A stretch of DNA of 64,000 nucleotides from Pegea sp. RAD2-039 (taxonomy: Eukaryota; Chordata; Thaliacea; Salpida; Salpidae), in the NCBI GenBank assembly GCA_034620365.1, contig JAQGEQ010000281.1:434001-498000 (forward strand), in the 5' to 3' direction. The position numbers and the translations under genes are program-made. Positions 18,656 to 58,375 of this stretch are shown piece by piece; the first letter of the stretch is position 1, and each line of letters starts with the position of its first letter. The notes under the pieces were generated by a model. That model ran no database searches. It worked only from the letters and a program-made list of their open reading frames with translations, and had not been told where the DNA came from.

Positions 18656-18917
18656 AACAGAACCCTCTAGTGATTTGACTAGAAGTAGATAAAGATCTTT
18701 CTACACGAGTTTGTTGGGTTCTACCTGATAAATAATGTTCAATCCACTGTAAGATAAAGCTGTTGATTTTTAAGTTTTTAATACAGTAACGAGCTTAGTG
18801 TGTGGGACAGAATCAAACGCTTTAGCAAAATCGAGATATATGATGTCACAGGGAGTAATACATTCAACAAATTTTGATTTTCTTAAGGAAAGATTGAAAT
18901 TATTCATCCTTGATAAT

Positions 18918-19675: not shown

Positions 19676-19748
19676 GCCCGGTTAGCTCAGTCGGTAGAGC
19701 GTTGGACTTTTAATCCAACGGTCGCGGGTTCAAGTCCCTCATCGGGCG
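19676..19748 (+). tRNA. tRNA-Lys(UUU), copy 1
   Basis: 73-nt cloverleaf without intron. The acceptor stem GCCCGGT pairs with ATCGGGC (one G-U). The D-arm is GCTCAGTCGGTAGAGC. The anticodon arm is TTGGA-CTTTTAA-TCCAA with anticodon TTT, and the T-loop is TTCAAGT. Box A and box B positions are intact. The T-stem GCGGG/CCCTC contains one C-U mismatch, shared by all three copies. A run of eight T follows two bases after the gene. It should decode AAA/AAG Lys codons. Confidence 0.95.
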
Positions 19749-23212: not shown

Positions 23213-23274
23213 TTTCGATTTTAAAATAATATTTATATTATAAAAGTCACTAGAACAAGTTTGTGAATCTGCAA
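23213..23274 (-). promoter_or_regulatory. Conserved block just upstream of the coiled-coil start codon
   Basis: Copy of the leader at 3002-3064 and 34714-34775: TTTGCAGATTCACAAACTTG, then an AT-rich stretch ending TTTTAAAATCGAAA directly before ATGG. It is probably the 5' leader and core promoter. Confidence 0.45.
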
Positions 23275-25480: not shown

Positions 25481-25559
25481 TCTTAAACGACTACTTGCAT
25501 TTTGATGTAGTGAAGGAATCAAAAAGTGAAGTCCAAACCTTGGTTTTATATTAATAAAG

Positions 25560-25980
25560 CTGTTACCAAAGTGGTAAAGTTTTTGAAGGTTTAACGGGAA
25601 TTCCAAGATTTTCAGGACAGATTAGTAAGTTTATGGCTTTCTGTAAAACTAAGTCAACTTTACAATTCATTTCAAATAATAGTAGAAGGTCGGAAAAAGC
25701 ATCGTAAATGCATTTACTATTGACTTTACAGAGACGGTGCTTGTAGTAAGAAAAGGGGATACTTTCCTTCATGTAAGGAAAGCTTTCCGGGTCAATGATT
25801 GCTGAACAGACTCAGCTATATTTTTTTCTAGGAGAAAAACTCAAACAGAAGTATTAAAATTTAATATGAGACAGATGTCTAAATGGAAAAGCTTTATGGT
25901 GTCCAGAAACTTGTTTATTTACAGTATCTAAGAATTTGGTATAAAGTTGATGATCTGATACTGAAAAAATAATAACGTGG
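25560..25980 (-). pseudogene. Orphan gene fragment with exon-like segments
   Basis: Two coding-like minus-strand segments. The first (about 25965-25850) follows TTTATTACAG and contains IFSVSDHQLYTKFLDTVNK. The second (about 25785-25563) contains IDPESFPYMKESIPFSYY and KCIYDAFSDLLLLFEMNC, and ends KTLPLW then a stop. The codon use and amino-acid mix look like real protein, unlike the AT-rich chance frames. The link between the segments needs a shift or an intron whose ends I cannot fix. No family is recognised. It could be a living small gene or the remnant of one. Confidence 0.35.
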
Positions 25981-26164
25981 CGATTCTGTAATAAATCATG
26001 ACTCAATTTTCAATTTAAAATTGATTTTATACAAAACTAATTGTAGACACTACCATGTAGATGGACTAAAGACAAGATACTTGTAGATTGTTTAACAGTA
26101 TTATCTTTCAGTTGAAGTTTTTTTCATATTTCGATAAATAGATTTTGTATTTTCAACAACTTCA

Positions 26165-26370
26165 AGCTTTGGTTTAAATAAAACAAGAATGTATGACTTT
26201 AATGTTTTTTTTATTCTAAGTAGTCACCATCATTCTATATTTGACTAAAATATTAAGCAGTAAGGTCAAGTGATATGATCACATGACAAAAATTACAACA
26301 TTTGAAGAACTAACAGGGTGATGCATAATAGCATAACTTGAAAAATTCAAATTTTAATTAAGGGGGTTGT
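26165..26370. repeat. Recurring block with GATCACATGACAAAAATT, copy 3
   Basis: Diverged copy of 8455-8690: TTTGGTTTAAATAAAACAAG, TTCTAAGTAGTCACCATC, GATATGATCACATGAC and GGGGGTTGTAAGAACC in the same order. Confidence 0.6.
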
Positions 26371-26449
26371 AAGAACCATCAAAGTTTATAAAATATTAAC
26401 AATATCAAAACTAAACAGTAGATTTATTCAAATTGCACTGAAAATAAAT

Positions 26450-29000
26450 AGATCTTAATTATTAACTCTTTAGATGTATATTTAAAGACCTGCTTCGATG
26501 ATTTGAGTTATATAAATCACCAAACATTTAAAGTAAACATTTCATCAAACTTTAAAATTGACATTTGTGTAACTTTAAACAAGGCTTGTATGCTTGATTA
26601 TTATTGATAGTGGTGTACTTGTTTCATTAACCCAATAACCAACTTTTATATTTGTATAGATGCTTTTGAAAATTATGTTACTTGCTATAACAGTAGAAAA
26701 AGAACATAGTTGGCGAGTTAATTTTCCCAATTTTTACATTAGTTTTTTTGTCCAATCTTTAAGTTGGTTCAGAGGTTAGTTAATTTTCAACTAACGAATC
26801 AACTTACTTTTTATTTGCACTCCTCTGCAAACTTGTAGTAGATCTGTAAGTCTTGCGCTTCGTTCAAATTTTTCTTATTTGTTTGCTGATTTGTTTGAAC
26901 CCAATCGAAATACAAGTTGAAGATATCTTTTTCTGTAAATCCTGTGTATGAAAAACTAGTTTACAATCCAGGCGAGTTGAGAAATTAGAGCTTACTATGT
27001 AAATTACGATTAAAATTACATCTTTCGAGCTAAAATTGAATTTGTAACATGCTATTTTTTAGTCTGAAATATATAATTTTAATCAACTTGCTTCTTTATT
27101 ATTTTTTTCAAAGTTAGTTTCCAAGGTATTACTTGAAAAAAGATTGAAACTATACATCCTGGATATTTATATCTTTTTCTTCAGTTTCCAATTTAAGTTT
27201 TATTGTTTGCTTCTTCTTCTTTGAGACTAGAAAAATATTATATTTTAAAAATGCAAACTGAAGCTTATAAAATCTTTTATATTTAAACAGCTATTGTGAT
27301 TACAAAAAGAAAATATTTTTGTCTGTTTTCAAATATTTCAATATTTTGTTTGGGTTTAGGTAGTTTTTTCTTTTCTTGCCACGTTAATTCTAATAAATTA
27401 ACTTATATTTCTGAAAATATTAGTAAATTTTAATAATCTATGAAATGTTATTACACAATATGCTAGCTTAATATTTTGTTTTATTTTTTATTTATCTGTT
27501 GTATATTCCACCTTTATTCCCCATTTTATTATTCTGAGTAAGTTATTGCTCATTTCAAATTTTGCTATATATATTATTGCAGAGTTCCAAATGTGTTTTA
27601 TTTTGTTCTTATGACAAATTCTAATATATATATTGATTCCACTTAGTAAAGCATGGTATAATAATACTGGATGCGTTGTTATACCCTGGTATTATCAAGT
27701 ATGTCTTAATAGACTGTAAATTCAATTAATTGGTAATAAAAATACAAATAAAAATGTGTAAAATGTTTGTAAAAACGGATTCAGTATTATCTTGCCTATA
27801 TCAACAATTTTATATACTAATAAATTGTGATCATAATTTTGTTTTTTAATGTCTTATTTTAGAAAAAGAAAGTATAAGTCAAATGATAATAAATTGGTTA
27901 TATACAATCAGAATTTTCTTATTCTTTGGATTTTGTTTAAAATTGACTTATTATCAATAAAACATCTTGTTAAGTTTATACATATATGGGTAACTTTAGA
28001 AAGCTAGAGCAACCATTTACATTTTATAAAGAACAGATTCAAACTTGAGAGTTGAAATTACTTTAAAACTTAGTTGTTCTAAGTAATAATCACAAGGGGT
28101 AAGTTAAAATAAGAATTAGAAAAAGTATCTAACCGTGTTGAATATTGAAGAATGAATTTCTTTTCTTTCCAAGTTAATGAATTTGAAATATTGGTATAAG
28201 GGACTTCATCAGATGATTTCTAATGAGTGTTATCTGCTTCAATACCTTTAGTTCTTATTACATTACTTTCTGAAAAATAACTTCTTTATATTAGTAAAAG
28301 TTAATCATTTGAGTTTAAAATAAATATAAGATAAATATTAATTATAAATACTCTAATATTTCTATAAAAGGATAAGTATTGACTAGTGACATCATTTAAA
28401 GTTGATATGAAAAAACTTGTTTTAATTATCTTTTAGCTTCATAGATTGTAATAAAGATCCATAGTAAAGGATATAAAAAAGTTCTTTTAAGAAAATGCCA
28501 ACAAATCTTATTTAATATAAATGTTTAATGATTTTTATACTATTAAATATTCAATTTTGAGCTAAAATAAAATTTTATAATATAAAACAAAATAATATTG
28601 AATTTAATAGAAATACAAGAAAAATAATTAGAAATTCAGATTTAAGAAACAGATAAATTAAAAAAACTAAATATGTAGGAATACTACAAAAACAAAATAA
28701 ATAAAAATTTTCAAAAATATTTAAAACTATAAAATTAAAAGCAGACAATTTTTACAAATAAACACATTAGTTAATTCACAATGAAAATTTATATAAAAAA
28801 GCAAGTTACCATTATTTACTTAAAAACAATTAAAAATACTTTTTTTTTTGTATTTTATTCATTGCTACAGATAAACTATACTTTTTGAAAAAGTTAAAAA
28901 TTTTTAGTTATACATTTTTTCAGTCTATTATCAAAAAAAACTTATATGTAAGATTGAAAATATAAACAGAATATAAATATATAAAATGTTCTTAAATTAA
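26450..29000 (+). repeat. Direct duplication with about 50540-52500
   Basis: Shared landmarks in order: ACTCTTTAGATGTAT, a GATTTGAGTTATATAAATCACC segment (positions ~26500-26522), a hairpin unit, and GACTTCATCAGA with TGAGTGTTATC near 28205 (51650 in the other copy). Between these the match is weak and the DNA is very AT-rich. No gene is supported. Confidence 0.55.
26761..26860 (+). repeat. Hairpin unit, solitary copy
   Basis: AAGTTGGTTC...GTTAGTT pairs with AACTAACGAATCAACTT around a short AT loop (stem about 17 bp with a 3-4 nt bulge). It is followed by TTTGCACTCCTCTGC, ACTTGTAGTAGATCTGTAAG and TCTTGCGCTT, as in the array at 48896-50930. Confidence 0.65.
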
Positions 29001-29769
29001 CAAATACTTTTTTGGGGTAAATAAAGAAAATAAATAAATAATAATTGAAAATATAATTAAAACACAAAATATGTTTATTAATTTTGATTTTTATAGATTC
29101 ACTTTTTAAATTTAAAAATATTAAAAAATTAATATAAAAGTTATAAGAAATAAAATTTGAAATTCAATTAACACTATATGATACAAAATAAAAACTAATC
29201 CAAAACTGATCAAAATGTACACAATGGCCCCAAATTTATTTATTTATTAATTTATTACAATAAACTATTATAAATTTTTACTATAAATTATTACTTGAAA
29301 AATATTTAATGGAGTTTTATTGCAAAATATATGAATACTTTTATTAAATTGAAACTTTAGAAATATTAAGATAACAAATTAGATAAACACACTAAGACAA
29401 AGTGAAATTTTTAAGTGTTCTAAGAATTTCTTCAATTTACTTTCTTAGTTTTATTAGCGTCAAATTTTTCTCTTTAATAGAAGACTCATAAAAGCTTTTC
29501 TGATGATCTAATCAAAACTTGTTCGTGATGTAAAAGTTTAACTAGTCCCACACTTTTGTAAAAAGGATAGATGTCATGTGGTTAATTATTTTAAGCACCT
29601 TGAATTTGACAACAAAGAGTTAATGGCTGATAGATTCACGTTAAAAGTAATATAATTTCCCTTTAATAGTTAGTCAAACTATCAAAAGTAAAGAAATTTG
29701 GATGTCAATTTTTAGAAAAACAAACAATTCTTTATTTTACAGGTTATCAAACTTTAAAAGCTGGAGTTG
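29001..29769. other. AT-rich stretch with no recognised gene
   Basis: Only a possible tail-only LINE trace (TTTATTTATTTATT, then TTATTACAATAAA, at about 29233-29265). Nothing else is supported. Confidence 0.45.
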
Positions 29770-29945
29770 GAGTCTGGTTGGCAGTTCGTCACTGTACTCA
29801 GTGTCGTTCTAGTAGCTCCCTGACGCCTGCATTAGTCCATCTGTTCCGATGCATAACCTTGTTGGCAATATAAAGAAGAATCCTGCTGTATGGGCAACAA
29901 TTGAATTTTCTCAGTTCTACCCTAGCCTATATGCAAGTGTATAAT
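29770..29945 (+). repeat. GC-rich dispersed repeat, copy 4
   Basis: Plus-strand copy that matches 5269-5470 in inverted orientation, ending CTGCTGTATGGGCAACAATT and CTACCCTAGCCTATATGCAA. It lies at the end of the inverted flank of the truncated gene at 31257. Confidence 0.65.
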
Positions 29946-31250
29946 AGTCGACACTGAACAAAAAAGTGAAAAAGCAATTTGGTTGTATTTTGAAATCTAT
30001 AAAATAATAGTATTTTTTTCCTGTTGTACCAAATAAAAAACATGGGCCATTTATTTTTAAATATTTAAAGTAATAGTGTTTTTAATATGGTTAAAATTGG
30101 TACCAAGTTAAAATTTATGGGCCATTTTGAGAGAAAGACAAATGTGGTAGTTGTTATGGTTTTGATCAAAAATAAAAATCCCCCAAAATGATAAGGCCTT
30201 TCACTTTTTTTTCTTTTTAGTTTAAATAAATTAAATCTACAACTTTAAGCTTTCAACTTTTGGATAAAGCTGATCAGAAAAATTTAGTATGTTTGATTTT
30301 AAATCATCAAAACTTAAATATAACCTAACAGTTATGTATAGGTAAAACTGATATTTCTTACAAATAAATATTACCACCAAATGGTATTGATTACGTTGTA
30401 AAATCTCTCCTTTGATAACAATTTAAAATTAAACCTCTGAGTAAAAAGTTCAAATTTTACAATAAACTGAAAAATGAAAAAGAAAAAACGAATAACAACA
30501 TGTGATGTGTATCAGCATGCTAAAGAAACCATCACTAATCACTGACTATACCAGGACAACAATAACAAAGCTGCCAACCTTCAGAATTAAAAAAATGTTT
30601 AGAAAACTCTGCTACTCCTATTACTTCCTTTTACGAAGTATTCAGAGACCTCTGCAAGCTATAAGTTTATTCATAAGACATAATTTCTTTGTAATCCTTC
30701 ACAACATTAATAATTTTCAAATAAAAAATAATAGTTTTAGAAAAATAATATTATGAAAAAGAAGTTTGGTATTATAGTAAAGATTAAGTGTGGCACAAGC
30801 AAGCATAGGTAAGTACTATTTGGCAACATGAAGATAATAATTGGAAAATTCGATATTGATTCTAATTAAAAATTTCAGAAAAAAGCTTCTAGTAAATTGT
30901 TATGTTTCCAATTTGTAATAGATAATTCATACGATGATTGAAAAGTAATTAACAGGTGAAAAAATAATAAGTAAAAAGGATTCAAGTTAAATTTCCATGT
31001 TAGTAGAAATATAAATTTTCAAAAATTATAAAGTTTTTAAAAATTGCGAATAACTAGTGAGTGCCAAAAACTTCATTACTTTTCAAGCTTGTTACAGCAA
31101 AGAATTTAATTACTCTTCCAAATTCTATTCAATATAACAATATTTTCAACCAGAAGAAAAAGAGATATTTACTTTAAAAATAATGGAGTCTTATAAATCT
31201 ACAGTTGGAACAAACTGGTTAATGGTTTCTTCTAAAAAGAAAGCTCATGC
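29946..31250. repeat. 3' flank, inverted copy of about 3971-5268
   Basis: Reverse-orientation match to the DNA after the gene at 3065. No coding sequence is supported in it. Confidence 0.6.
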
Positions 31251-31256
31251 AGCTGT

Positions 31257-32038
31257 CTTCCTAAAATCCACCTCCAAAACTATGAGATTCACTTGCTTCA
31301 TTATCATTAGTGAGAAACGATTTCCATTCTTAAATTTAAAAAGGACCACCAATGATCGCGAAAAAACTCATCGAATGGCACACCTTCGATTAAAAAAAAT
31401 TCAGATGTCTTATCTCTATATGCCTTGCTACATATCATAATCTCCAAATACAAGCGGCGTACATAATCCGATGCTTTTGCTTTCATGAGCTCTATTTCAG
31501 AACAATTCTTATTCTTCTTAGCAAATTCATTCACATTGTTGAAGGATTCTATTAGTAAAAATGTATTAAGAAACAATTCTTGATGTTCTTCATACAACAC
31601 TCTTGACTCTTTCAGTTCTCTTTTATACATATCAAGATCCATAGAAGTCTGCGGGATAGGAAACAGTTTTTCTTTTTTGAAGCAAATTTTTCGATAAAAA
31701 TTTATAGCTTGTATATAGCTAGCCACTTCTCTATCAAAATCTGATTTTCTTTCTGCTAAAGATTGATGGAACAACTTGATGTCTTTAATGGGCCTTTTAT
31801 AAAAGAATTCAACAAAACTCGAATCTGGACGGTCTTCCTCGCTATTAAAAAATTGAAATAGAGTTTTTATTTCATTGACCATACCTGTTTTAATATCTGA
31901 CAAAACTATTTTCATCTTTTTGTACTCAGATGGTAAGATCTGAACAAGATCTTCTTTCAAAATTTCTTGATTGGACTCAAGTACTTTCTTGATAATTGAC
32001 TGATCACTTAAATTGACTTTTAATTCATCGACAATGGC
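31257..32038 (-). pseudogene. Coiled-coil family gene, 5'-truncated
   Basis: The minus-strand frame is open from the breakpoint near 32038 down to 31307. It begins inside the family repeat unit (IVDELK, then SIIKKVLESNQEILKEDLV) and runs through NFYRKICFKKEKLFPIP and the C-terminal FLIEGVPFDEFF. It lacks the N-terminal ~190 residues, the leader and the promoter block. At the 3' end the frame has shifted relative to the gene at 3065, and an extra T (A-run at 31263-31266 on the plus strand) puts a stop where that gene reads FRKTAA. An internal Met at 31960 could start a 217-residue protein, but with no promoter I consider it a pseudogene. Its closest relative in the window is the gene at 3065. 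Confidence 0.75.
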
Positions 32039-32039
32039 T

Positions 32040-33066
32040 TTTCAGTCTAACCTTAGTTTTCACCTATTAGTCTCTTGGCGAATATACAACTCTCTTTTAT
32101 AGCTGTATCCGGAGACAGATGGGTAATTACAGAAGAATGGTTTGCAAGAGGGTCTGATTTCAGCCGCTTGTAGATCAAATTTTATAGATTATAAATAATT
32201 AGAGCGAGACAGGAGGTATTGTACACCGTATCTATGGAAGACAGTTACTAATCACTGTATTTCAATTGGCACAAAAAAAAGCTAAAAAATGCTAGTAACA
32301 AAAGATGTGGTTGAACTCAATAAACAAATTAGCCAATTGTCAATGACAAATTTATGGGACTTGGTTCAATTACAAGATTTTCTAAGACCTTTGGGTGGTT
32401 TTTATTTTGATGAATAAAAATCTATTAAGAATCAAACTTCTTTTATTAACGCTCATTCTTTTAATTGTATTCAAATTATGTGAAAACAAACGTTTCAACA
32501 GCAAAGATTGTGAAATAACAAACGTTTGTTAACATGATAAAACAAGCAAAATTTGATTTAAGAATTATTTTAAATATTAATTGAAGATTAATTATTAACT
32601 TTTTATTTATGAGGAAAACAAAACTAGTTTTTCATAATTCATTTAATTTATTCAAAAGTTCAAACAGTTGATTCTAAAAACCTGTAAAATTCATAAACAA
32701 GTGGTAACAGAAATTCATCTAATAATGATTAAATCTGCTTTCTACTTGAAATATAAATTTGGGGTTTTTCGAAAATACAAGAAACAAATTAGTTTGAGAA
32801 GAAATCAATTTCTCAAGTAAATGTCTACATGTTTTACAAGAAAAAAAACTAAAAATTATTCGACAATTTAATATGAATTATGATTTAAGACATCAAGAAA
32901 TTAAAGAGAAAATGGCCCATCAGTAAGTATCACATTCCATATGTAAAATTGAATAATCAAGAAGTTCAGGAGCTTTTAAATCTAACGTTGAATAAGAAGA
33001 TCAGAAATTTCCTCCAAATAAGGAGCTTGTATAACTCTTGTAAATGTTCTGAAATCCACAAACTAA
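32040..33066. repeat. 3' flank shared with 20840-21904
   Basis: Direct repeat of 20840-21904. With the gene at 33067 and its upstream DNA it forms a duplicated segment of about 3.9 kb. Its left edge, near 32039, is the breakpoint with the truncated gene. Confidence 0.7.
32059..32417 (+). pseudogene. Decayed coding relic opposite the coiled-coil gene, copy 2
   Basis: Better-kept copy of 20867-21226. Segment 1 (32059-32173) follows CTAACCTTAG and includes SGDRWVITEEWFARGSDF. Segment 2 (32203-32295) includes SETGGIVHRIYGRQLLITVF then QLAQKKAKK. Segment 3 (32289-32417) is a 42-codon frame starting MLVTKDVVELNKQISQ and ending LGGFYFDE. Segments 2 and 3 overlap in different frames at a run of A, as if one base had been lost. 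An AATAAA lies at the stop codon of segment 3. The protein is not recognised. Confidence 0.45.
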
Positions 33067-34713
33067 TTATGCTGTATGACCTGAACTACTCTTCATCAAT
33101 TCTACTACCAGAGGTTTGAAATAAGTCCATTGTTTGTTATAAAACTCTTGGAATGGCACATCTCCGATTGACAAACATTCAGAAGAATCCTCTTCATATA
33201 ACTTGCTCATTTCTACAATTTCATTGTATGAGTCAGTTATAGCCTGTACTTCTTTTTCTATCTTCATTTCTATTTGACGATCATCAGTTTCTTGCTCGGT
33301 AATTTCCTTCAAACCTTTGAAAGATGCAATCATTGAGGAAATCTTAAGGAACATTTCTTCATGATTTTCATACAACATTCTTAATTCATTCAGTTCTTTT
33401 TCATACTTTTCAAGATCCGCAGAGCTTCTAGATAAAGGAAATTGTTTTTCCTTTTTAAACGACATTTTTCTATAGAAATTTATAGCATTTTGAAAGCTGG
33501 TCGTTTGTATATCGCATTTTGCTTTTCTTCCAACTAGGACTTGAGAAAATAGCTTTATATCTACAACTGGCTCGTTGAAAAAGATTCGAAAAAACTTCGA
33601 TTCAGAACATTCATCATCGCTATTAAGAAATCGCCACAACGATATTATTTTTTTGATCATACCTGTTTTAATATCTGACAAAACTATTTCCATCTTTTCG
33701 TACTCAGATGGTAAGATCTGAACCAGATCCAATTTCATCATTTCTTGATTGGACTCAAGTACTTTTTTGATTATTGAATCATCACTTAAATTGAGTTTTA
33801 ATTCATCGACAATGGCAGAAAACATAGGTTTAAACTTTTCCACTACCTTTAATCGAGATGCTTTCAAAGACTCTAAACCTTCTACAACCTTACTGACTTT
33901 CAGAATATTTTCTTTAGTTGCTTGATTTTCAATGTTTTCTTCACTTGGGGTGCATCCAAGTTCTTCACATAGCGCTTTTTCTGAACTTTTCAACTTTTTA
34001 AACTCTTCTTCTCTTGATAAAAGTATCTTCATATTCTTGTACTCAATTGGCAAAATCTTAACAAGCCCCACCTTCAACATTCGTGGATCTGACTCAAGTA
34101 CTTTCTTAATAATTGAATCATCACTTAAGTTGAGTTTTAATTCGTTGACAATTTCTGCAAACTTAGGTTTAAACTTTTCCACTACCCTTAATCGAGATGC
34201 TTTCAGAGACTCTAACTCTATTAGAAATCTACTAATTTTTAGAATGTCATTTATAGTAGGACAGTTTTTATTTTTTTCTCTACTTGGGGTGCATCCAAGT
34301 TCATCACATAGCGCTCTTTCAGAACTTTTTAACTCTTGAAACTCTTCTATTCTTTTTTGGCGTTTGATTTTCATCTCATTGATTGAACATTGAGTTTCGT
34401 TTATTCGTTCAAAAATGTTTTTCCTTTCTAAAACTGGTATGTTCTCATCCAAATCAGAAGCAAGCTGTTTAAGTTCCGTTTGTTTAATTTCAAACGTTTC
34501 TATTAAAGAAGCACTGTATACAGAAGTTTTCTGGCAAAGATCTTCGCACTGTTTGTCAATAACATCAGTAAACTCTTTTTGCCATTTTTCAAATATTTCA
34601 GTTTCATCTTGGCAAACACTCCAAATTTCTGCATTCTTAGTCAGTTGAGCTTTGATATAATTAACTGTAGATTCTATCCAGCCTGAGTAAGATTGTCCAT
34701 CTTTTGTTTCCAT
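33067..34713 (-). CDS. Coiled-coil family protein with duplicated unit (548 aa)
   Basis: Intact 548-residue frame, the longest family member. The N-terminus reads SGWIEST (10-16) and KNAEIWSVCQDE (26-37). A unit of ~113 residues occurs twice in tandem: residues 124-236 and 237-349. Each unit runs from ELKSS-ALC or KLKSS-ALC through ELGCTPS, ESLKASRL-VVEKFKP and DDSIIKKVLES to EYKNM or EYEKM. NFYRKMSFKKEKQFP (412-426) and the C-terminal SIGDVPFQEFYNKQW (515-529) follow. From residue ~455 on it is almost the same as the gene at 21905. The first unit is more diverged than the second, which is closer to the single unit of the 435-residue form. It is Lys/Glu-rich and probably coiled-coil, with no signal peptide or membrane segment. 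The start follows the conserved leader. Confidence 0.8.
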   Translation of the reverse strand: METKDGQSYSGWIESTVNYIKAQLTKNAEIWSVCQDETEIFEKWQKEFTDVIDKQCEDLCQKTSVYSASLIETFEIKQTELKQLASDLDENIPVLERKNIFERINETQCSINEMKIKRQKRIEEFQELKSSERALCDELGCTPSREKNKNCPTINDILKISRFLIELESLKASRLRVVEKFKPKFAEIVNELKLNLSDDSIIKKVLESDPRMLKVGLVKILPIEYKNMKILLSREEEFKKLKSSEKALCEELGCTPSEENIENQATKENILKVSKVVEGLESLKASRLKVVEKFKPMFSAIVDELKLNLSDDSIIKKVLESNQEMMKLDLVQILPSEYEKMEIVLSDIKTGMIKKIISLWRFLNSDDECSESKFFRIFFNEPVVDIKLFSQVLVGRKAKCDIQTTSFQNAINFYRKMSFKKEKQFPLSRSSADLEKYEKELNELRMLYENHEEMFLKISSMIASFKGLKEITEQETDDRQIEMKIEKEVQAITDSYNEIVEMSKLYEEDSSECLSIGDVPFQEFYNKQWTYFKPLVVELMKSSSGHTA

Positions 34714-34775
34714 TTTCGATTTTAAAATATTATTTAAATTATAAATGCCACTAGAACAAGTTTGTGATATTGCAA
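34714..34775 (-). promoter_or_regulatory. Conserved block just upstream of the coiled-coil start codon
   Basis: Third copy of the leader (see 3002-3064), again ending TTTTAAAATCGAAA before ATGG. The possible acceptor TTTGCAG reads TTTGCAA here. Confidence 0.45.
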
Positions 34776-36545
34776 ATAAAACTAAAACGATTTGGAATTT
34801 TGTAAAAATACAAAAACATTGTTTTCATGATTTAAAAAGAATAAGCAGTTTACTGAATGTAGAATATTAAGTAAAATATACTTAGATTATTTCCAGAGTA
34901 AATTTACTTATAGTTTCTAAATACTTATGTGATTTGATTTAAAACATTAATATAGATTAAATATTTTTAGCTTTTTTCAACACATGTTAAAGAAAAAATA
35001 AATAAAAGTAGATTAGTATAATTAGTATGAAGTATCGAATAGTCTATTCTAGACTATTTATACTTTCTATAAACCTTAGAATATTTAGTTGAAATTAATT
35101 GAATCTATATTAGTAATTAAAATAATTCCTAAAAACGAAGGTATATTGATAAAAATCACAAAATAAATGATAAGATCTACAAACCTTAAACTAAAACTTA
35201 AACAGTATTAAAACGCATATCAGCTTGTCAGTAACATGTAATTACAACTGCACAACTTATTTCTATAACTATATAAGCAGCTTTATGAAATGTATAGTTT
35301 GGCTGATTGAAAATGTTCTTTTCAATGGCAAAAATTAAGTTATCTACATAATATTACTAACTTTGCTTTTTAAAATTTTAAAAACGAATGCTAGAGAATC
35401 TTAATGATTTTTTCGCACAGTAATTTTTCCTTGCAAACTATTTAAATATTAAAATTTCAGCAAAAGTTACAATCATAGTTATAAAATATAAACTATATAA
35501 CTTATTTACATAATTTTGTATCAAATTAGTCATACAATATACAACAATTATTTCTAGAAACGAAAAACAAAAGAGCTACTATTAAGGCTTTAGCTAAACA
35601 AATCCTAACTACTTTTCTTAAAATTCTTTAACTTTTAACAGTTATTATATAATTTAGATGACAATGATTATCAGCATAAGAAGAACGTGAAAAAAACTTC
35701 TTTCAGAAAAGCACTGAAATAATAAAAACAATTTAACAAAAACTTCTAGTAAATTAAACAGAAATTATTTGGTTTCTTAGTTGTTGCTGTTATTCTGATT
35801 TGAATAAAGTAACAAAATCTAGATGATTTATGTTTATAAAAGTAAATTACATCATATATAAATCCATTTACATGAAATAAGTAATAAAAATTATGAAATA
35901 TAGAAAATTAATAGTTTCATTTTATTTTCTTGTATGTACAACTTCTTACACATTAATATTTAATTTTCAATAGTTTTAGATCATTCACAGTAGATATATA
36001 TGTCTTTAACATTCCTGAAGCTTATGTACTTTAGAGAATATCTTCAAACTGTTTGCAACTTGAAACAGAATAAAATTTTAACTAGTGAAAACATCAGAAA
36101 TTTTCCTAATAAACTTCTATTGAAAATAGAAAATTTCATTTTTCTAATGAACATTTTATTTCATTTTTTGATTGACGTTAAAGTATTTATTTATTTCTTA
36201 AACTTGCCATAAACTCAGCAGTTTTTATAGTAAATACAAAATAATTATCATAAGTAAACAAATAATAAATAGGTTTCAAGTTTGACTATTTAAAATTAAT
36301 ATAAAAAGGATAAGAACAATAATAATAGCTCTTATATTAAAACAGGTTTCATGCATTACATAATATTAAAATAAATACTAAGTTACAGACAATAATATTG
36401 ATTTATTGTAAACATTGAAGAAAACTATGTTATCAATCACAAAAGGATATTTTATTTTCACATTTATTGTAATAAATAAATTAATAAATAAATAAAATTT
36501 TGTTTAATAATGAATGATTTTCAGTTTTAAATCAAATCATTTTAA
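34776..36545. repeat. Upstream flank shared with 23275-24440
   Basis: Direct repeat of the flank upstream of the gene at 21905, up to about 35960. The remaining DNA to 36545 is AT-rich; a possible LINE tail trace (TTTATTGTAATAAATAAAT) is at about 36464-36500. No gene is supported. Confidence 0.6.
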
Positions 36546-38519: not shown

Positions 38520-38592
38520 GCCCGGTTAGCTCAGTCGGTAGAGCGTTGGACTTTTAATCCAACGGTCGCGGGTTCAAGTCCCTCATCGGGCG
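38520..38592 (+). tRNA. tRNA-Lys(UUU), copy 2
   Basis: Same 73-nt sequence as 19676-19748, including anticodon TTT and the C-U mismatch in the T-stem. The upstream DNA is also alike, so this is a segmental duplicate rather than a retroposed copy. Confidence 0.95.
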
Positions 38593-39141: not shown

Positions 39142-39214
39142 GCCCGGTTAGCTCAGTCGGTAGAGCGTTGGACTTTTAATCCAACGGTCGCGGGTTCAAG
39201 TCCCTCATCGGGCG
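39142..39214 (+). tRNA. tRNA-Lys(UUU), copy 3
   Basis: Same 73-nt sequence as copies 1 and 2. It lies 549 bp downstream of copy 2 in the same orientation. Confidence 0.95.
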
Positions 39215-39907: not shown

Positions 39908-40652
39908 ATTATTAAAACTAAACGTTTTCAATTTATAATCAATAAGCAGTAAGTTTGATTGTTGCATCATGTACGTTTCATTCATGAATACTTTTACGAA
40001 GTTTAACTGAGAAACAAGAAGCACATATGTGCTAGAGAAAATTAGTGCTGTGAATACTTTTGCCACTATATTTTATTTCTTAGTCATTACAGTTGTGCTT
40101 ATGGCAATAGTTTATTTTGTTTGTTTCAATATTTTGTATAATTAGAGCACTATTAAAAATAAAGTTTATTTTTATTTAAATTTTTCTTCAGAAGTTTCTG
40201 AGTTAATTTTTTATTTGCTGCTGTTGAGCTTAGTGAGAATTTTAGCGGCAGGTAACATAAATTGCAGTTTTGATTAAAATAACTAACCAACTGTTAACAC
40301 TGGTGTTTTTTTCTAAAATTTTCTTAAATTAATAATTTATTTGCTATGAAAGTGACTTGAAAATGTTTATTATTTTCATATGAAACAGATAAGGATCGAT
40401 TTTCAAATAAGTAATTTGTCTTGAAATAATTGACTTCTGAAAAATTATTTATAAAGTTGAATAAATATTAAAATTTATATTTAAGATCTTTGTTTGAGTA
40501 TATAATAATTAAAATCTAATTTTATTTGAAAAATTAATCTTAGTTTCAAAATTCTTTTAAACTTTCATTGAGAAATATTTATACCGTTTTTGCAGAGTAA
40601 AGCTTCTAATATATTAATCTTTTAGAATCAAGACTCTGATTAAAGCAAGAAA
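39908..40652. other. AT-rich stretch with no recognised gene
   Basis: No coding sequence. It does not carry the leader block seen before the other coiled-coil genes, so the pseudogene that follows has a different 5' flank. Confidence 0.5.
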
Positions 40653-42076
40653 ATGGAAAAACAAGAAAAAGAAACACAATCTCACTCAGCATGGATAGAA
40701 TCTACAGTTGAAAATATCAAGTATCACCTTACTAAGAATGCAGAAATTTGGAATCTTTGCCAAATTGATCCTGAAATTTCGAAAAAATGGCAAGAGGAGT
40801 TTTTAAAAGGTATCGAGGAGCAGTGTCTACAACGTTTTCTGAAAAGCAATTTTTACAATATTTCATTAAATGCAACACTTGAGAAAAAACAAAAAGATGT
40901 ACGGAAAGATCCTTTTTATTTTAAAGAAGGTTCTACAGCTTTAAAATGTAGAAAGTTTGATGAAAGAAAAGATGATGCCCAACATTGTATCAAGAAGATG
41001 AAGCCTACACGAAGACTAAGTAAGGAAACGGCTGAAGAAGTTAAAAGTGCGCAAAGAACTATTTGTAAAAAGAAAAGTGAAAATGTTGAAGAAGGTAGAA
41101 CTGAAAATTGAATGCCAAAAAGGAATGGAAGAGTTTAAAAAGTTGAAACTTTTCGAAATAGCGCTATGTGAAGAACTCGGATGCATCCCAACTAAGCAAA
41201 ATACTGAAAATTACGCAACTAAAGAGAACATTCTGAAAGTCAGTAAGGCTGTAGAAGATATATAGTCTTTGAAAGCATCGATTAAGGGTAGTGGAAAAGT
41301 TTAAACCTAAGTTGGCGGAAATAGTGGATGAATTAAAACTCAACTTAAGTGATGATTCAATTATTAAGAAAGTACTTGAGTCAGATCAACAAATGTTGAA
41401 ACTGGATCTGGTTCAGATCTTACCATCTGAGTACGTAAGATGAAAATAGTTTTGTCAGATATTAAAACAGGTATGGTCAATGAAATAAAAACTCTATTTC
41501 AATTTTTTAATAGCGAGGAAGACAGTTTATATAGGAGAAGGTTCAAGGAAAATAAAGCCCTATGGCGACATAAGAATAACGAAAGAAAATGTAATTTTCA
41601 ATTGTTTGGACGTTTAGCTAAAATCCCTATTGAAAATATAAAAATATACCATCAATATTTGTTAAGAAAAAAAAAACAATTTTAATATAGAAATAGCCTG
41701 CTGTAAACATGCTATAAACTTTTATCGAAAGTCGTGCTTTAAAAAAGAAAAACAATTTCCTTCTGCAAAAAACTATAAAGATCTGGATAAGTATAAAAAA
41801 GAACTGAAAGAGTCAATAAAGCTGTTTACATCTCACAAGGAAATGTTTTGTAAGACTTCCTCGATGATTGCATCTTTCAAAAATTTGAAGGAAATTACCA
41901 AGCATAAAAATGATTGTTTTCAAATAGAAATAAAGAAAACTATAACAAATATAACTGGCTTATATGATAAAATTGTAAAACTGAGCAAGATATATGAAAA
42001 AAAGTTTTCTGAAAGCTTTTCCATCGAAGGTGTTCCATTCAATGAGTTTTATAACGAACAATGGTCTTATTTTTAA
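40653..42076 (+). pseudogene. Coiled-coil family pseudogene
   Basis: Recognisable from HSAWIEST and NAEIWNLC at the N-terminus to SIEGVPFNEFYNEQW before the final stop at 42074. It is broken several times. The first frame ends at 41111. Family sequence resumes in another frame (EELGC, then NILKVSKAVEDI) and meets a stop at 41263. A small deletion near 41281 shifts the frame through SIIKKVLES-type sequence. A further frame holds LSDIKTGMVNEIKTLFQFF from 41440, and a run of A near 41670 shifts it again. It is more diverged than the other copies, with insertions near residues 85-125 and around 41530. It is probably the oldest duplicate in the window. Confidence 0.85.
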
Positions 42077-48292: not shown

Positions 48293-48895
48293 AGCTTTTT
48301 TATAGTATTACAAATACTACCAGAGGTATATAACCAATAAGTTTATTTTGTTTAATATTTTTTTTTAATATTCATTCGGCAAACTTTATCGATAAAATGC
48401 TCAAATTCAGAAATTATTAATAGAAAACGAATTTGCCAAAGTTAGTAACATAAAAGAAAACTTTCATGATCTATTACAGTTTTATTATAAATTTGAAACA
48501 ATTGGGGAAACAGACAAGTTGGTGTGATAAAACGTCGAATTGAAAAAGTTTCAATTCAATTGTAGATCCGTGCAAGAATCCAGTGAATTATTAGACTCTT
48601 TTCGATTTCTTTACATTCAGACTTTAAAAGATTGAGAAAATTGAACTTGAAGATTCCTTTAAGTTGTTTTAGTAGTGATAAGAACACATATGTAATTGGC
48701 GACCTGCAATAAATGTATTACAAAATCAGATAATGAAAAACAATTAAACCAGCCAAAATAAATGAGAGATCACTTAAACCTAAATAAAAAAGGGATCTTC
48801 TTATCTCAATCTGAACGAAGATTTTAGATGATATCGTTTCTTTTAAAATCTTCAATTACTTGGCAGAATCAGGCCAGCCCCTTTGACAAGCCTGG
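48293..48895. other. AT-rich stretch before the hairpin array
   Basis: No gene. From about 48690 it contains spacer sequence related to the array (GGCGACCTGCAATAAATG, like GGCGACCTACACGG near 49257). Confidence 0.4.
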
Positions 48896-48944
48896 AAGCA
48901 GATTAATAAGTAAGTTAATTTTTAACTTACTTACGAATCCACTT
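48896..48944 (+). repeat. Hairpin 1 of the array
   Basis: Arms AAGCAGATTAATAAGTAAG and CTTACTTACGAATCCACTT, with the loop in a TTAATTTTTAA stretch. The outer part has mismatches and the inner ~10 bp is perfect. Confidence 0.6.
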
Positions 48945-49081
48945 ACACTTCAGTTGCACTACTCTTTAGAAAACCCGGATTCTTGCGCCTAGTTTCCGAA
49001 ACTGATTTTTCTGCTTGTATTTTTTACTAACCTTCAATCATTCAGAAAAGATCGAATTAGTCAAAACATTGAAGCATCTGA

Positions 49082-49131
49082 AAGTTGGTTCGGAAGTAAG
49101 TTAAATAAAGACTTACTTACGAATCAACTTA
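49082..49131 (+). repeat. Hairpin 2 of the array
   Basis: Arms AAGTTGGTTCGGAAGTAAGT and ACTTACTTACGAATCAACTT, 18 of 20 positions paired, with a ~10-nt loop. Confidence 0.75.
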
Positions 49132-49430
49132 CATTTTATTTGAACTCCTCTTTAGACTTGTAGTAGATCTGCAAGTCTTGCGCTTATTTCCAAATTTTTC
49201 TTGTTCATTGTTTCAATAACCAAGTGACCAATTTTTATAAAATCGATTGATGTGTGGCGACCTACACGGTAAGTGAAATTTAGAAAAGTAAAACAGAAAG
49301 TAAATGAAAGATAACTTGAAGTCGTTTTTACATCAATTTTTTGTATTTATTGATTGAAGTGTCAATGAAACCATCTTCTTAACAAACCTCCAATCATTCA
49401 GAAGATATCTAATCAGACTTTGTCGAATCT

Positions 49431-49483
49431 GTAAGTAGATTCAGAAGTAGGTTAATTTTTAACTTACTTACGAATCAACTTAC
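49431..49483 (+). repeat. Hairpin 3 of the array
   Basis: Arms begin GTAAGTAGATTCAGAAG and end CGAATCAACTTAC, so the stem extends to about 25 positions with a few mismatches. Confidence 0.7.
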
Positions 49484-49624
49484 TCTCTATTTGCACTACT
49501 CTTCGAACTTGTAATAAGACAGCAAGGTTTTCGCTTAGTTCCAAATTTTTTATGTCTGTATGTTTTTGACAAACCTTCTATCACTGAGACGAGATCGAGC
49601 TAGAGTAAAATTGGGCGAAGCTGA

Positions 49625-49674
49625 AAGTTAATTTACAAATAAGTTAATTTAAAACTTACTTGCAAACTAACTTA
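49625..49674 (+). repeat. Hairpin 4 of the array
   Basis: Arms AAGTTAATTTACAAATAAGT and ACTTACTTGCAAACTAACTT. Several positions differ from hairpin 2 on both arms while staying paired. Confidence 0.7.
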
Positions 49675-50079
49675 CTCTCTATTTGAACTACTCTTTGGAC
49701 TTGTAGTAAAACAGCAAGGTTTTTGCTTAGTTTCAGTTTTTGTTTATTTCTTGTTTGTTCAAAAATGGAAGATCACAACTTCAACTACAAACATTTTCAG
49801 AAACCTTCTCCATCAAGTGGCTGAAAATAAATATTACTTAGTTCTCAGTGATTTGTTCAAACACTTTCGAAATACATGTTTCATGACTTCTTCTGCAGCA
49901 AAATCTCCTGTAAAAAAACAAGTTCACGACCACTGCAAGTTGGGAAATAAATTCTTACTATGTAACCATTTACCTCTGTGTGATAGCTGAAATTGATTTT
50001 GCAGCGACATCTTCTGTTTTTGACAAACCTTCTATCACTGAGAAGATATCCAATTAGACTAAACTGTGGTAAAGCTGAA

Positions 50080-50129
50080 AGTTGGTTCAAAGGTAAGTTA
50101 TTTTTCAACTTACTTACGAATCAACTTAC
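50080..50129 (+). repeat. Hairpin 5 of the array
   Basis: Arms AAGTTGGTTCAAAGGTAAGT and ACTTACTTACGAATCAACTT around a TATTTTTCA loop region. Confidence 0.7.
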
Positions 50130-50310
50130 ATTTAATTTGAACTCCTCCATCTAGCTCACAACCACTGCAAGTTGGCTTATCAAAACTTACCATGTAAATA
50201 TTTACTGCTGTTTGTTAGTTGAAATTGAATTTGCAGCGACATATTCTGTTTTTGACAAACCTTCAATCATTCAGAAGAGATCGAATTAGAGTAAAATTGG
50301 GCGAGGCTGA

Positions 50311-50360
50311 AAGTTAATTTACAAATAAGTTAATTTTAAACTTACTTGCAAACTAACTTA
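50311..50360 (+). repeat. Hairpin 6 of the array
   Basis: Almost the same as hairpin 4, including its flanks, so units 4 and 6 are recent duplicates. Confidence 0.7.
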
Positions 50361-50820
50361 CTCTCTATTTGCACTACTCTTTAGACTTGTAGTAAAACAG
50401 CAAGGGTTTTGCTTAGTTTCAGTTTGTGTTTATTACTTCTTTCTTCGAAAATGGAAGATCACAACTTCAACTCCAAACATCTTCAGAAACCTTCTCCATC
50501 AAGTGGCTGAAAATAAAAAGATCTTAGTTCTCAACTCTTTAGATGTATTTTTAAAGATCTGCTTTGGTAATTTGTATTTTAAATCATTAAAGAGTTAAAG
50601 TTTCAAGAGCTTCGGTGATTTGAGTTATATAAATCACCAAACAGTTAAAGTAAACATATCGAACCTGGAAATCGACATTTGTGTAAATCTAATGTAAACA
50701 CATCTTCTTTTCACGTCTACTCATCATCATTGAATGATATTCGTCAAAAAATAGTTTTTTATAAAACCTTTAATCACCCGGAGGAGACTTTGTAGTATCT
50801 CTGGACTTTGTTGAATCTGT

Positions 50821-50870
50821 AAGTTGGATCAGAGGCTAGTTAATTTTCTACTAGCCTACGAATCAACTTA
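50821..50870 (+). repeat. Hairpin 7 of the array
   Basis: Arms AAGTTGGATCAGAGGCTAGT and ACTAGCCTACGAATCAACTT. The inner stem GGCTAGT/ACTAGCC replaces AGTAAGT/ACTTACT of the other units on both arms. Confidence 0.75.
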
Positions 50871-50930
50871 CTTTTTATTTGCACTCCTCTGCAGACTTAT
50901 AGGAGATCTGCAAGTCTTGCGCTTAGTTCC

Positions 50931-53466
50931 TGTTATTATCCCTAAAACAAATCTATAAAAACCAAATCTTCCTAAATGTTTTTGTCAACATAAACAACTT
51001 TATATAAATTGTAAATCAACATATATATATATATTGTAAATATATAAATTATAATTAGGCTATTATTTCAAAATATTTATAAAAAGGAAAATATGGTGAT
51101 CAATTTTGAAAGTTATCAATCTTTTTATAATTCAAAATCCAATTTTTTCAAATGAAAGTCGATTAATTTTAATTTACTTGTAAATAATCTAAATAAAATT
51201 TCATATTTATTTAATAACCTAGCATCAGAAGAAAATACTCCTATACTTCTATAGAGGTGTTTTCATATTTTTCTTTGTCATATTAATCATAATTATTTAA
51301 AATATAACTTTTGAAATTATTTTAAATTTTCAATTATCCAAAAAGTTGAATATTTTCTTTTTATTTATATCTATCTCTAAAATGTATCTACTATATATCC
51401 CCAATTATTTTTTATTTTAATTAACTAATGTCCATTACTATTTCTTTTTAATTGAAACCAAAGCTTTTCGAATTATTATATTATTAAAAACAAATTTATT
51501 AAAACCAAATCTTTCTAAATATATAAATGTATAGTTAGTTTTAGAAGGCTAATTATCTAAAAGAAAATTATCAAAACCATCTACCTGTGTTGGAAAGTGA
51601 AAGTGATCTTCTTTTGCCTGAATAATGACCTTGAAATATTGGTGTACAGGACTTCATCAGAGATTTGCTACTGAGTGTTATCCGATTCAAGATCTTTAGT
51701 TTTTCCTGCATTACTTCCTGAAAAATAATTCTTTGATTAGAAAAGATTGGTTATTTGAGTCCAAACTAAATAATTAATTAGATATAAATTCTTTAATAAT
51801 AGCTAATTATTTCCTTAAAACAATTTTTTATTGTAATTTTTGAACTATTGATAAAAAAAATTGATATGACATTAAGAAATTAGTTTTAATAATCTTTTAG
51901 CTGCATAGATAAGTTCTATACATAAAATGTCATAAAATTTTAACTAATATTTATATTTAATGATATTTTAAATATTTAACTATTTTTATAATAGTAAGCT
52001 ATTATTAAACTAAAAATCAGTTTGAATAGTTTATTATTTATTATTTGAATCCCATAGATTATATTGGATATAATAGATATATCAAAATTAACAAAATAAA
52101 TTCAGATTAATGAAACCAGCAATTTCAAAAACTGGTTTTAAATATAAAAAATAGTTTAAAAAATTATATAAATAAAAAATACTTAAAACTGCAAGAATAT
52201 AGAAAAAGAATTTGTGATTAACTAAGTATGGTTACACACATAAAAAAATCTGATGACTACTTTTTCCACTATTTTTATTATATAAACTAAAAAAAGTCAT
52301 TTTTGTTTATTTAACCTATTGGTGTAAATTATCCCATAACTTGTCATACTTTATGCATAAGTTAAATACTTTTAGTTATAAATTTTTAATCTAATTGAAA
52401 GAAAAAATAATTGTAAAATTCAAAATGAAACCAAACTAGAATACATTTTTCTTAACAAATACTTTATAGGTTACACTGAGAAAATAAATAGTTAATAGCT
52501 ATAAATAGATTTAATTGAAAACTTAATCACTTTCATTTTTTTGATTTAATAAATTCATGATAAACAAGTAGTTTGCAGGACAAACAAGTTTTTGGAGAAC
52601 AGTTAATAGTGTGAAACAAAATATAAAAACAATTTACCCGAAAATATGTTTCTTAAATCCAACAGTAACTACCTGTACAAGGACAAACTAGAAAAAGAAA
52701 GAAAGTGCCAAGTTCTTGTTATATATCGACCTAAACACGTCATCAGGGACATCCCCTGTTCAATTACGATTTGTCATCACTGCTGTTGTTGACCAAGTAG
52801 ACCAGTTTTAATTATTAAATACTGTATAATACAACAAACATTATATAAATTAAATATAATAATAAATTAAAATCTCTCCTTGAGGTTACCCTATTCTTGT
52901 AAATGCTCAAATTAATAGGGTTTAACTTTTAAAAGTTCAAGGTTGGCTCACTATCATTATGGATTAAAAGCATTTTAGTCAGCTAAAAAAAAATAAAATG
53001 TTAACTTAGTAACATATTAAAATATAATAAATAATAAGATAACAATTTACATTTATTTATTTTTCAACCTTGAAACCTTTATCAAGAACCTAGAAGTCAT
53101 TATGAACAATTGTTTCATCAAAGTACTTTTGGATGTTAAACTATTTACAAAAAATACTTTTTGAAATTAAAAAATCTAAACACTGATATTAACTATCTAA
53201 CATTTAGAAAATTATTAATAAATGGTTTATTTAAAATTAAAACATTTAAGTAGCTAAATTTTAAAAACGTTTTAATTATTAAATACCGGTGTTAGAAAAG
53301 ACAAACTATTGGTAAAAGTTTAAATGTCTACTTTTATAATCTGTAAAATATTGTTTAAACTAAATGAATGATCTAAACACTTATTGCATATTTTATCACT
53401 TTTTCATGCTGTTTTCTTTAAGTACTAAAATAAAAGATAAATTTTTGATTTTAGATTATTGTATTT
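50931..53466. other. AT-rich stretch, partly duplicate of 27400-29000
   Basis: No gene. It contains a TA-rich microsatellite at about 51021-51035 and the GACTTCATCAGAGATT landmark near 51650 shared with 28205. The part after about 52500 shows nothing recognisable. Confidence 0.5.
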
Positions 53467-56335: not shown

Positions 56336-57215
56336 GTTTATTTATTTCAGAGAGCACCTCTTGCTAACACACATTCTTAAGAATAACATCTATTTAGTCA
56401 AAAATATAGAGAGTAAAAGATGTAACACATTGCATTTCAGTAGTCCTCAAAGCATATAACAGTGAACAATTACATAGAATGTTAATGATATAAAAAAAAG
56501 GAAACAAAAATCACAGTTTAGAAATGACAATGTTGACAATATTATTACGGTTCAACTTCTGCTTGAACAACACGAGCGACTTCGACATGGCAATGTCTGA
56601 TGGCAGCTGGTTCCATGTACTAATTGTGCGATCGGGGAAAAATTTGCTCTGGCCAATGTACCAGGCTTATTATAATAGGCTTATTAAGATGTAAAATGTG
56701 TCGTCTGAGTTGATATAACTTGAGGAAAGGACTAATGGAAAGGAAATCATCAATTAAATTATGATTAATTTTGAAAATAAGAATTAAGTCGTATTTAATC
56801 CGTCGAATTTCCAAAGTATCTAGATTGAAGAAAATGAGACGTTGTTTATAACTATCATATTTAATATTAAGTTTCCTGCATATCAATCTCGTAAATGTGG
56901 CCTGAACGGATTTGATTGTTTTGATATCACTAACTTGATATGGCATCCATGCACTGACATTGTATTCAAGAATTGGACGTACGTACAATTTGAAAAGATT
57001 GATAAAAAAGCATGGGTTCTTAGAATTAAAGGTCTTTATATTAAGGAAGACAAAGTTAATTGGTTTTCCAAAGATTTTTGAAACATAATTGCGCCATTTA
57101 AAGTCAGATGATAAAGTAATGCCAAGGTCTAGGACCGAAGATACTCGTTGAATAATAAATCTATAGATGGAGTATTGGTTCAAAGAATTTACAACTGGTT
57201 TACGAGAAAAAGTTA
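56336..57215 (-). mobile_element. LINE copy, 5'-truncated
   Basis: Minus-strand LINE 3' portion of ~0.9 kb. Its tail (AAATAAATAAAC on the minus strand) is joined to GGTGCTCTCTGAAATAAAT; about 25 bp of the usual terminus (the AGGCACCCTCC part) is missing. The RT C-terminus lies at 56620-57183. The 5' truncation point abuts a TA repeat. Confidence 0.8.
56620..57183 (-). pseudogene. LINE reverse transcriptase C-terminal fragment
   Basis: 187-codon open stretch, the best-kept piece of the RT C-terminal region. Landmarks: SSVLDLGITLSSDFKWRNYV, the YVRPILEYNVSAWMPY motif, FTRLICRKLN, and YKQRLIFFNLDTLEIRRIKY. This is the pattern of CR1/L2-type LINE enzymes after the catalytic palm. The catalytic residues themselves are absent because the copy is 5'-truncated. 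Its stop leads into the LINE 3' UTR. Confidence 0.8.
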
Positions 57216-58375
57216 TAAGTTTATATATAAATATATATATATATAAGGTGATAGTTAGCTTATAGGTTAATAATACTTAACAAACAATATTAGCACTGCA
57301 TGTTTTATAAAAGCTTGAATGTTAAAAACAGTTTTATAAACTTCAATTTAGGTATAAGTAGATAACATTTTCGTTTTACTAAATTCAATATAAAGTTTCA
57401 ATAAAACTGTAATTTCTAATATGCAATTTTGGAAAGTGTCGTAGATCGAAAAATTATAGTAATCTTAGTTGTTATCGTTTGTTTTTATTTGCAGCAACAA
57501 CAAACGTTGATGAGATTACAATATTTATAATAAACTGTTATTTTTCATTGTATTCTGTGGTTGTGTTTGAACTCCACAGTAGAAAGTGTTGAGCAATGTA
57601 CAATAAACCGAACTCAGATATATAACAGATTTGAACTAGCTTCAAGTGCAATAATTTCTTAATCAATTATAAAATGAAACTGATACTACTTAAAAATTAT
57701 CTCAAAATGATCTGTTGACCTGGCAGTTGCTATTTAAGCTATGTTGTTTGTATAAAAAGCAAAAAACAAGATTTTAAACAAAGATTTATTTTGGATTTTG
57801 ATGAAAACTTGAATTTACGTTTACTTTAAAAATTTCATTTTAATTATAAACAAATAATGTATTATTTTAGTTTTTAAGGCTGTATTTGTACCAACTATGA
57901 AAAACTTGACAGTTATAAAATTTTAATAACTTTTTTAAAAGTAGCATGCGAAGAAAAACTCATAATAATTTTTTTAATAAGTTTTTTTATTAAATCGTGA
58001 ACTAAAATCAATTGCGATAGTATTTTTCTCATCCCATAGATAAGCATGCTATAAATATATAAATGAATATAAATATTCCCTACCTATTGTTTTTTAAAGC
58101 ATCTGGAATGTATTTCTTCTGGAAATCTAACAGCTTTTTGTAGCAAAGAGACAAGTACACTTAAAACAGAAGAAACTGTTGCAGTATAAAAGATAATGTA
58201 TGGCAGATGAGTATTCCCCGCTTTGAATAGTAGCTTATACAAGTCACAAAAAGCTATAAAATAACCTTCTTTTGATGTCTGATTAAATCTTTACTTTCTA
58301 AGACAATCTCAACAAAGCGCTGATTAGTGCATGCTACTTTCCGTTATCCACAGAAGGTAATTATTGATAAATAAC
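57216..58375. other. AT-rich stretch with a TA microsatellite
   Basis: A short TA repeat at about 57222-57244; otherwise AT-rich with no supported gene. Confidence 0.5.

Follow-up and report, generated by a model that had tools for sequence, protein, structure and literature searches.

A probable young satellite-like tandem repeat with quasi-palindromic cores at one locus of the salp Pegea sp. RAD2-039

Results

Features of the locus

The window, that is the whole stretch of 64,000 nucleotides analysed here, is part of a contig of 644,471 bases (C50) of Pegea sp. RAD2-039, and its GC content, taken in 2-kb steps, ranges between 22 and 32%. It holds eight hairpin-bearing units, seven of which form an array at 48881-50965 while one lies alone at 26746-26883, together with a cluster of related open frames that have no introns within them:

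3002-3970, plus strand: open frame of the cluster
21905-23275, minus strand: open frame of the cluster
26746-26883, plus strand: single unit S with its hairpin at 26760-26807, the 3' arm being shortened by a 4-nt deletion; 5' box not recognisable
31307-32041, minus strand: open frame of the cluster
33067-34824, minus strand: open frame of the cluster
40644-42076, plus strand: open frame of the cluster
48881-49011, plus strand: unit W1, A-like, without second stem; hairpin 48893-48947
49026-49225, plus strand: unit W2, B-like, second stem whole; hairpin 49079-49133, 186 bp after W1, the monomers abutting
49377-49576, plus strand: unit W3; hairpin 49430-49483
49569-49769, plus strand: unit W4, C type; hairpin 49622-49675, 192 bp after W3, its stem continuous over 21 bp only on the minus strand
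49921-50022 and again 50153-50254, no strand assigned: spacer segment common to the window array and the 1.54-kb higher-order repeat
50023-50152, plus strand: unit W5, a hybrid with the core truncated past the 3' box; hairpin 50076-50130
50255-50455, plus strand: unit W6, C type; hairpin 50308-50361
50765-50965, plus strand: unit W7, B-like; hairpin 50818-50871, inner stem GGCTAGT/ACTAGCC

Each hairpin comprises 55 nt, with two 24-nt arms around a loop of about 7-9 nt, and forms an imperfect palindrome within a monomer that runs in the order 5' box, hairpin, 3' box and tail. The start-to-start spacings of the hairpins in the window array are irregular (186, 351, 192, 454, 232 and 510 bp); since W1-W2 and W3-W4 abut at 186 and 192 bp, the monomer measures about 190 bp. 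A unit of about 150-165 bp, with a second small stem and constant boxes on either side, had been proposed originally. The conserved block indeed extends over about 155-190 bp, but the second stem is whole or carries at most one mismatch in only 5 of 18 aligned units. Unit 2 and two of the B units have it intact, in unit 7 and the single unit it carries one mismatch, and in two more B units two. The remaining 11 (units 1, 3, 4, 5, 6 and the A and C types) either have it deleted or show breaks at two or more of its pairs.

The surroundings are rich in duplications, namely an inverted duplication of 11.76 kb, an array with an 8-bp and another with a 90-bp period. The inverted duplication pairs window positions 20305-32038 with contig positions 411087-422812 at 96.4% identity and carries the single hairpin unit, whose second copy lies at contig positions 416221-416352, as well as gene copies. 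Among the open frames of the cluster, one of 585 aa matches Pfam MAP65_ASE1 (E 4.6e-12) and the others resemble that frame or one another at the DNA level; several members are shortened or split. The nearly perfect array of about 3 kb with an apparent 8-bp period occupies contig positions 425949-428916, and the 90-bp array encodes most of a 1,706-aa open frame (L016:4346-9466, minus strand) made up largely of 30-aa repeats with a hydrophobic C-terminal end, which adjoins the hairpin higher-order array. Furthermore, the window contains three tRNA-Lys(TTT) genes with equal Rfam scores (19676-19748, 38520-38592 and 39142-39214) and a reverse transcriptase fragment of non-LTR appearance at 18212-18700 on the minus strand (PF00078, E 2.5e-10). 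A second fragment at 56620-57276, also on the minus strand, gave no Pfam hit at 0.01 and shares a stretch with the first one as judged by eye.

Genomic reach and copy structure

Probing the genome (105.7 Mb, 387 contigs) with one unit returned at least 31 matches, all 31 on the window's contig between 416 and 531 kb, and a longer probe at least 45, again all on this contig; both counts are lower bounds as the search skips very common words. Of the 42 and 25 places that two pattern searches found with a tolerance of 3 mismatches, two each lay off the locus, all at 3 mismatches, while the reversed-pattern controls found 3 and 4. A covariance model covering the hairpin and the 3' box was built from 18 units; run over 20 sequences (186,249 bases, 158 kb of them from the hairpin locus), it recovered 39 full sense units with E of 8.6e-14 or below, including the 18 used in model building, and one remnant of 25.6 bits. 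In an alignment of 41 candidate rows, 30 full units and two remnants belong to an array on the minus strand at 515.3-531.2 kb of the contig, and the remaining full units are the seven of the window array, the one at window position 26.75 kb and its inverted copy at 416.2 kb. The hairpin family is hence confined, in the searches made, to about 115 kb of one contig. A dispersed mobile element such as a MITE was rejected, as the whole-genome probe and pattern searches found no unlinked copies.

The minus-strand array is built of a 1,541-bp repeat that holds three unit types, A, B and C. Seven copies of this repeat were compared and are 93.5-96.7% identical to each other, more alike than the types A, B and C inside them, which reach 0.66-0.94 in the core. 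Identity between types, taken in 40-column steps, is 0.66-0.95 over the core and 0.41-0.72 beyond it. The locus therefore combines head-to-tail copies of a common monomer, as in a local tandem repeat, with the copy pattern of a higher-order repeat. The large arrays or numerous loci typical of classical satellites were not found; with about 40 units on one contig it is better termed a local tandem repeat than a major satellite. A satellite-like spread was one of several outcomes named beforehand as speaking against a structural role, and the units are spread in this way, as a local tandem satellite.

Folding and strand

Compared with shuffled sequences, 11 of the 39 units (the eight of the window and three of the second array) had folding z-scores between -3.0 and -8.0 on the plus strand and between -4.5 and -8.6 on the minus strand; all eight inverted repeats of the original prediction, seven in the array and one near 26761, were thus located and fold far better than shuffles. 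Folding energies were tabulated for the 39 units, which are not independent of each other, leaving out two remnants (rows 529510 and 531084 of the 41) from this table and from the list of arms. All 39 hairpins reach -14.3 kcal/mol or better on the minus strand, where the mean is -21.7 kcal/mol versus -17.7 on the plus strand, and where a strand is preferred by more than 0.5 kcal/mol it is the minus strand in 20 units and the plus strand in 9. This advantage exists because the C type forms its continuous 21-bp hairpin on the minus strand only; of the eight window hairpins, four (those of units 2, 3 and 5 and of the single unit) are more stable on plus and four on minus. For the 18 aligned units, RNAalifold gave a weak consensus of 15 hairpin pairs at -7.5 kcal/mol with a covariation term of -0.36.

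Mismatches give different answers depending on how they are counted. By pair position, G-U type mismatches occur at 6 pairs and A-C type at 7 in the 18 units, and neither strand looks protected as RNA; by cells, 28 A-C on plus, equivalent to G-U on minus, face 17 G-U on plus, and the minus strand has more wobble pairs by virtue of the C type, which drives the excess.

The good folding of all hairpins on the minus strand, the continuous C-type stem found there and the excess of wobble cells would suit a tandem hairpin-RNA locus, in which a minus-strand transcript folds into 20-21-bp hairpins cut by Dicer or Drosha, either like hp-CG4068 or as a lineage-specific microRNA cluster, a reading that we consider possible but doubtful. 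Ribonuclease III and Piwi domains, with 4 and 10 matched pieces in the genome, make small-RNA processing possible in principle. However, the even distribution of wobble kinds over pair positions and the four window hairpins that favour the plus strand argue against it. Primary microRNA precursors possess a lower stem beneath the arms, whereas folds of the 41 unit sequences, inspected by eye, displayed no consistent one, type B having a short one across an internal loop. As for known precursors, no Rfam family passed its cut-off at the array, and the best sub-threshold match scored 26.5 bits against a required 99.

Nor did searches for near-perfect matches, covering the genome with one 22-nt pattern and 158 kb with 37 distinct arms, reveal a target gene complementary to the arms. 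Against the rest of the 158 kb, the mean best match of the arms was 17.5 of 24, compared with 17.3 for shuffled arms. Against the neighbouring gene copies (six stretches with MAP65/ASE1-like frames) both values were 15.4, and silencing of these genes was rejected accordingly. The 22-nt pattern of the 3' arm occurs at 122 places genome-wide versus 11 for the control, mostly within the locus among the matches listed. Off the locus, those listed with at most 2 mismatches fall into low-complexity arrays on C156 (14) and C284 (2) and at one site on C262, and those listed at 3 mismatches are scattered. The low-complexity arrays, at C156:3900-4700 and C284:388950-389750, are made of words like ACTTACTTAGCAACC and AGTTGGTTAGTAAGTT, similar to the hairpin arms.

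The even wobble kinds by pair position, together with the opposite orientations of the arrays on one contig, agree instead with a palindrome acting as DNA. Its arms would be extruded as hairpins or cruciforms while the DNA replicates and would function in chromosome structure or recombination, a role suggested for palindromic satellites close to centromeres; palindromic satellite monomers have been described, e.g., in Tribolium and Trichogramma (PMC13081366). Yet about 40 units at one locus are far below a centromere-sized satellite and no link to a centromere was seen at the locus, so that we regard such a role as improbable.

Promoters and other gene types

Several units have T-runs past the core, and a conserved box sits 40-50 bp upstream of the hairpin. 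Both would also suit snRNA-type genes, each unit being preceded by a proximal sequence element and ended by a T-run acting as terminator. This is very improbable. When scored with a matrix of the genome's own snRNA element, the upstream regions of all 41 units gave values from -16.6 to -3.7, whereas real elements (n=20 distinct) have a median of 33.7 and a lowest score of 6.6, and shuffled sequences a mean of -8.7; the best site anywhere in the window array reached 5.7. The upstream box is therefore not the snRNA element of this genome, and the lack of an Rfam match over cut-off at the array points the same way. The U1, U2 and U6 genes of the genome have in common an upstream element like CCCACAAACACTAAACTT and a TATA-like box, and one U1 variant begins AAACTTACTTGG.

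Two further candidates were dismissed. A spliced-leader RNA was searched for with an 18-nt stretch of a rotifer leader as the only query, which had no exact match in the genome. Duplication of an intron or exon, prompted by GTAAGT and CTTTAG in the core, was discarded since both GTAAGT occurrences are gone from the C type and unit 3 is without the AG.

Paired changes between unit types

The paired differences on which a structural role had been proposed are real: in the 18-unit alignment, the inner stem is AGTAAGT/ACTTACT in unit 2 versus GGCTAGT/ACTAGCC in unit 7, and between units 2 and 4 pair 9 changes from G-C to A-T and pair 13 from C-G to T-A. Altogether 8 of 34 pairs are changed on both sides, 6 of 24 in the hairpin and 2 of 10 in the second stem, amounting to 27 cells. 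In 500 column shuffles the means were 4.6 pairs and 11.2 cells, the observed values being reached by 1 and 0 shuffles, respectively, and sliding the partner by one column yielded no more than 5 pairs and 13 cells. Further pair types were not in excess (19 versus 19.3 in shuffles).

Since the rows are related, independent change was simulated along trees for 11 representatives selected from the 39, starting from a perfect palindrome and with the tree scaled to the divergence of the arms. Three trees, two transition biases and two root states were used; support for the trees is weak, and unit 5, being mixed, points to possible recombination. Under these settings, 7 Watson-Crick double-change pairs were observed against 1.6-2.7 expected (p 0.0005-0.011), and counting G-U as well, 6 pairs at matched divergence (p 0.005-0.022). 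The overall Watson-Crick share, however, was 0.788 compared with an expected 0.734-0.768, not above that of a neutrally decaying palindrome (p 0.07-0.28). With unscaled trees, in which the arms change at the flank rate and simulated arms diverge more than real ones, the outcome was reversed: pairing exceeded expectation (p 0.000 for the flank tree, 0.004 for the hairpin tree), whereas double changes did not (p 0.62 and 0.09). How constrained the centre appears thus varies with its assumed rate. This central stretch of about 100 bp, which comprises arms, loop and 3' box, differs between types by 0.18-0.25 and the flanks by 0.32-0.36, and within the centre the loop is as alike between types as the stems. 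Taken together, double changes are in genuine though modest excess, which counts in favour of the hairpin-RNA locus discussed above.

Stem constraint in recent copies

For recent change we used 12 copies of the higher-order repeat, some of them partial. Variable sites are as frequent in the stems (21 of 144) as in the spacer (149 of 956; Fisher p 0.81), that is, no stem constraint is detectable. Changed cells number 32 of 1473 in stems, by raw count somewhat below the 303 of 10329 in spacers. Among 29 changed stem cells, 23 end unpaired, 3 of these having been unpaired beforehand and 6 representing one polymorphism at pair 16 of type B, and not one of the 29 is a compensated double change to a new pair. 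The unconstrained stems of recent copies count against both the hairpin-RNA and the DNA-element readings. As for the suggestion that paired changes reflect selection on structure, it is still backed by the older unit types, whose covariation exceeds a phylogenetic null, but neither the recent copies nor overall pairing, which is not above neutral decay, bear it out.

Discussion

We favour, with a probability of roughly 0.6, the view that the locus is a young local satellite-like tandem repeat in which template switching or gene conversion homogenises the arms of a quasi-palindrome. The ancestral monomer, about 190 bp long and with a 55-bp imperfect palindrome (24-bp arms, 7-9-nt loop), would have been duplicated in tandem, and its copies would then have diverged into types A, B and C. 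Subsequently, an A-B-C trimer plus spacer may have been amplified as the 1.54-kb higher-order repeat, about 30 kb away and in the opposite orientation, with the arrays probably growing and shrinking by unequal exchange. Meanwhile, template switching during replication or gene conversion between the palindrome arms would rewrite one arm to match the other. We infer this order of steps, as well as unequal exchange and arm rewriting, from the copies as they stand today. No host function is needed, and the hairpins themselves may promote local instability.

Template switching between arms would account both for the matched arms and for the unconstrained recent copies. Published work describes it as giving rise to multibase compensatory changes and to homogenised arms (PMC8794818, PMC8604942), and hairpins maintained in this way, or by quasi-palindrome correction, resemble the present ones in the multibase paired changes of their inverted repeats, as those reports describe them. 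Such correction is, however, a mutation process and not a family, and here it is deduced from arrays in which no single-event tract can be dated; moreover, an inverted loop as the mark of a template switch was not clearly visible in any of the loops inspected by eye. An excess of double changes would also be expected under selection on structure. Exchange between the arms, an alternative raised in the original prediction itself, accounts for the paired changes with no need of selection.

One close parallel is provided by satellites with long palindromes inside their monomers. For instance, TmSat2 of Tribolium and the 385-bp satellite of Trichogramma brassicae, as described in PMC13081366, likewise consist of tandem monomers with higher-order repeats, an inverted repeat within the monomer and arrays in opposite orientation. 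The present locus differs from them in having only about 40 units at one locus, 24-bp arms, irregular spacing in the window array and no centromere link seen.

A second comparison concerns hp-CG4068 of Drosophila, which according to PMC10317233 is transcribed, acts as a Dicer-2-dependent siRNA source and has 9 to 20 tandem copies in four related species, showing that tandem hairpin loci of quickly changing copy number exist; for a hairpin-RNA cluster it is the closest working model. Both systems are local tandem series of short hairpins with variable copy number, but hp-CG4068 is an siRNA source whereas the array described here would be a putative one and has no near-perfect target among those searched. 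A more elaborate version, to which we give slightly less credit than to a hairpin-RNA locus in general, is a lineage-specific cluster of about 39 short-hairpin RNA genes on the strand opposite to that originally considered, whose stems would have been kept by compensatory change during the A/B/C split and then relaxed or homogenised after the recent 1.54-kb amplification, and which could silence a repeat or gene family. If small RNAs do arise from it, the array would be comparable to hp-CG4068 as a tandem hairpin-RNA locus, though in a genome of a very different kind.

The locus is a natural case in which strong-looking covariation exists alongside no detectable constraint in the youngest copies, and it serves as a warning for covariation tests on tandem inverted repeats. 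Likewise, it is a site at which template-switch repair might be told apart from selection.
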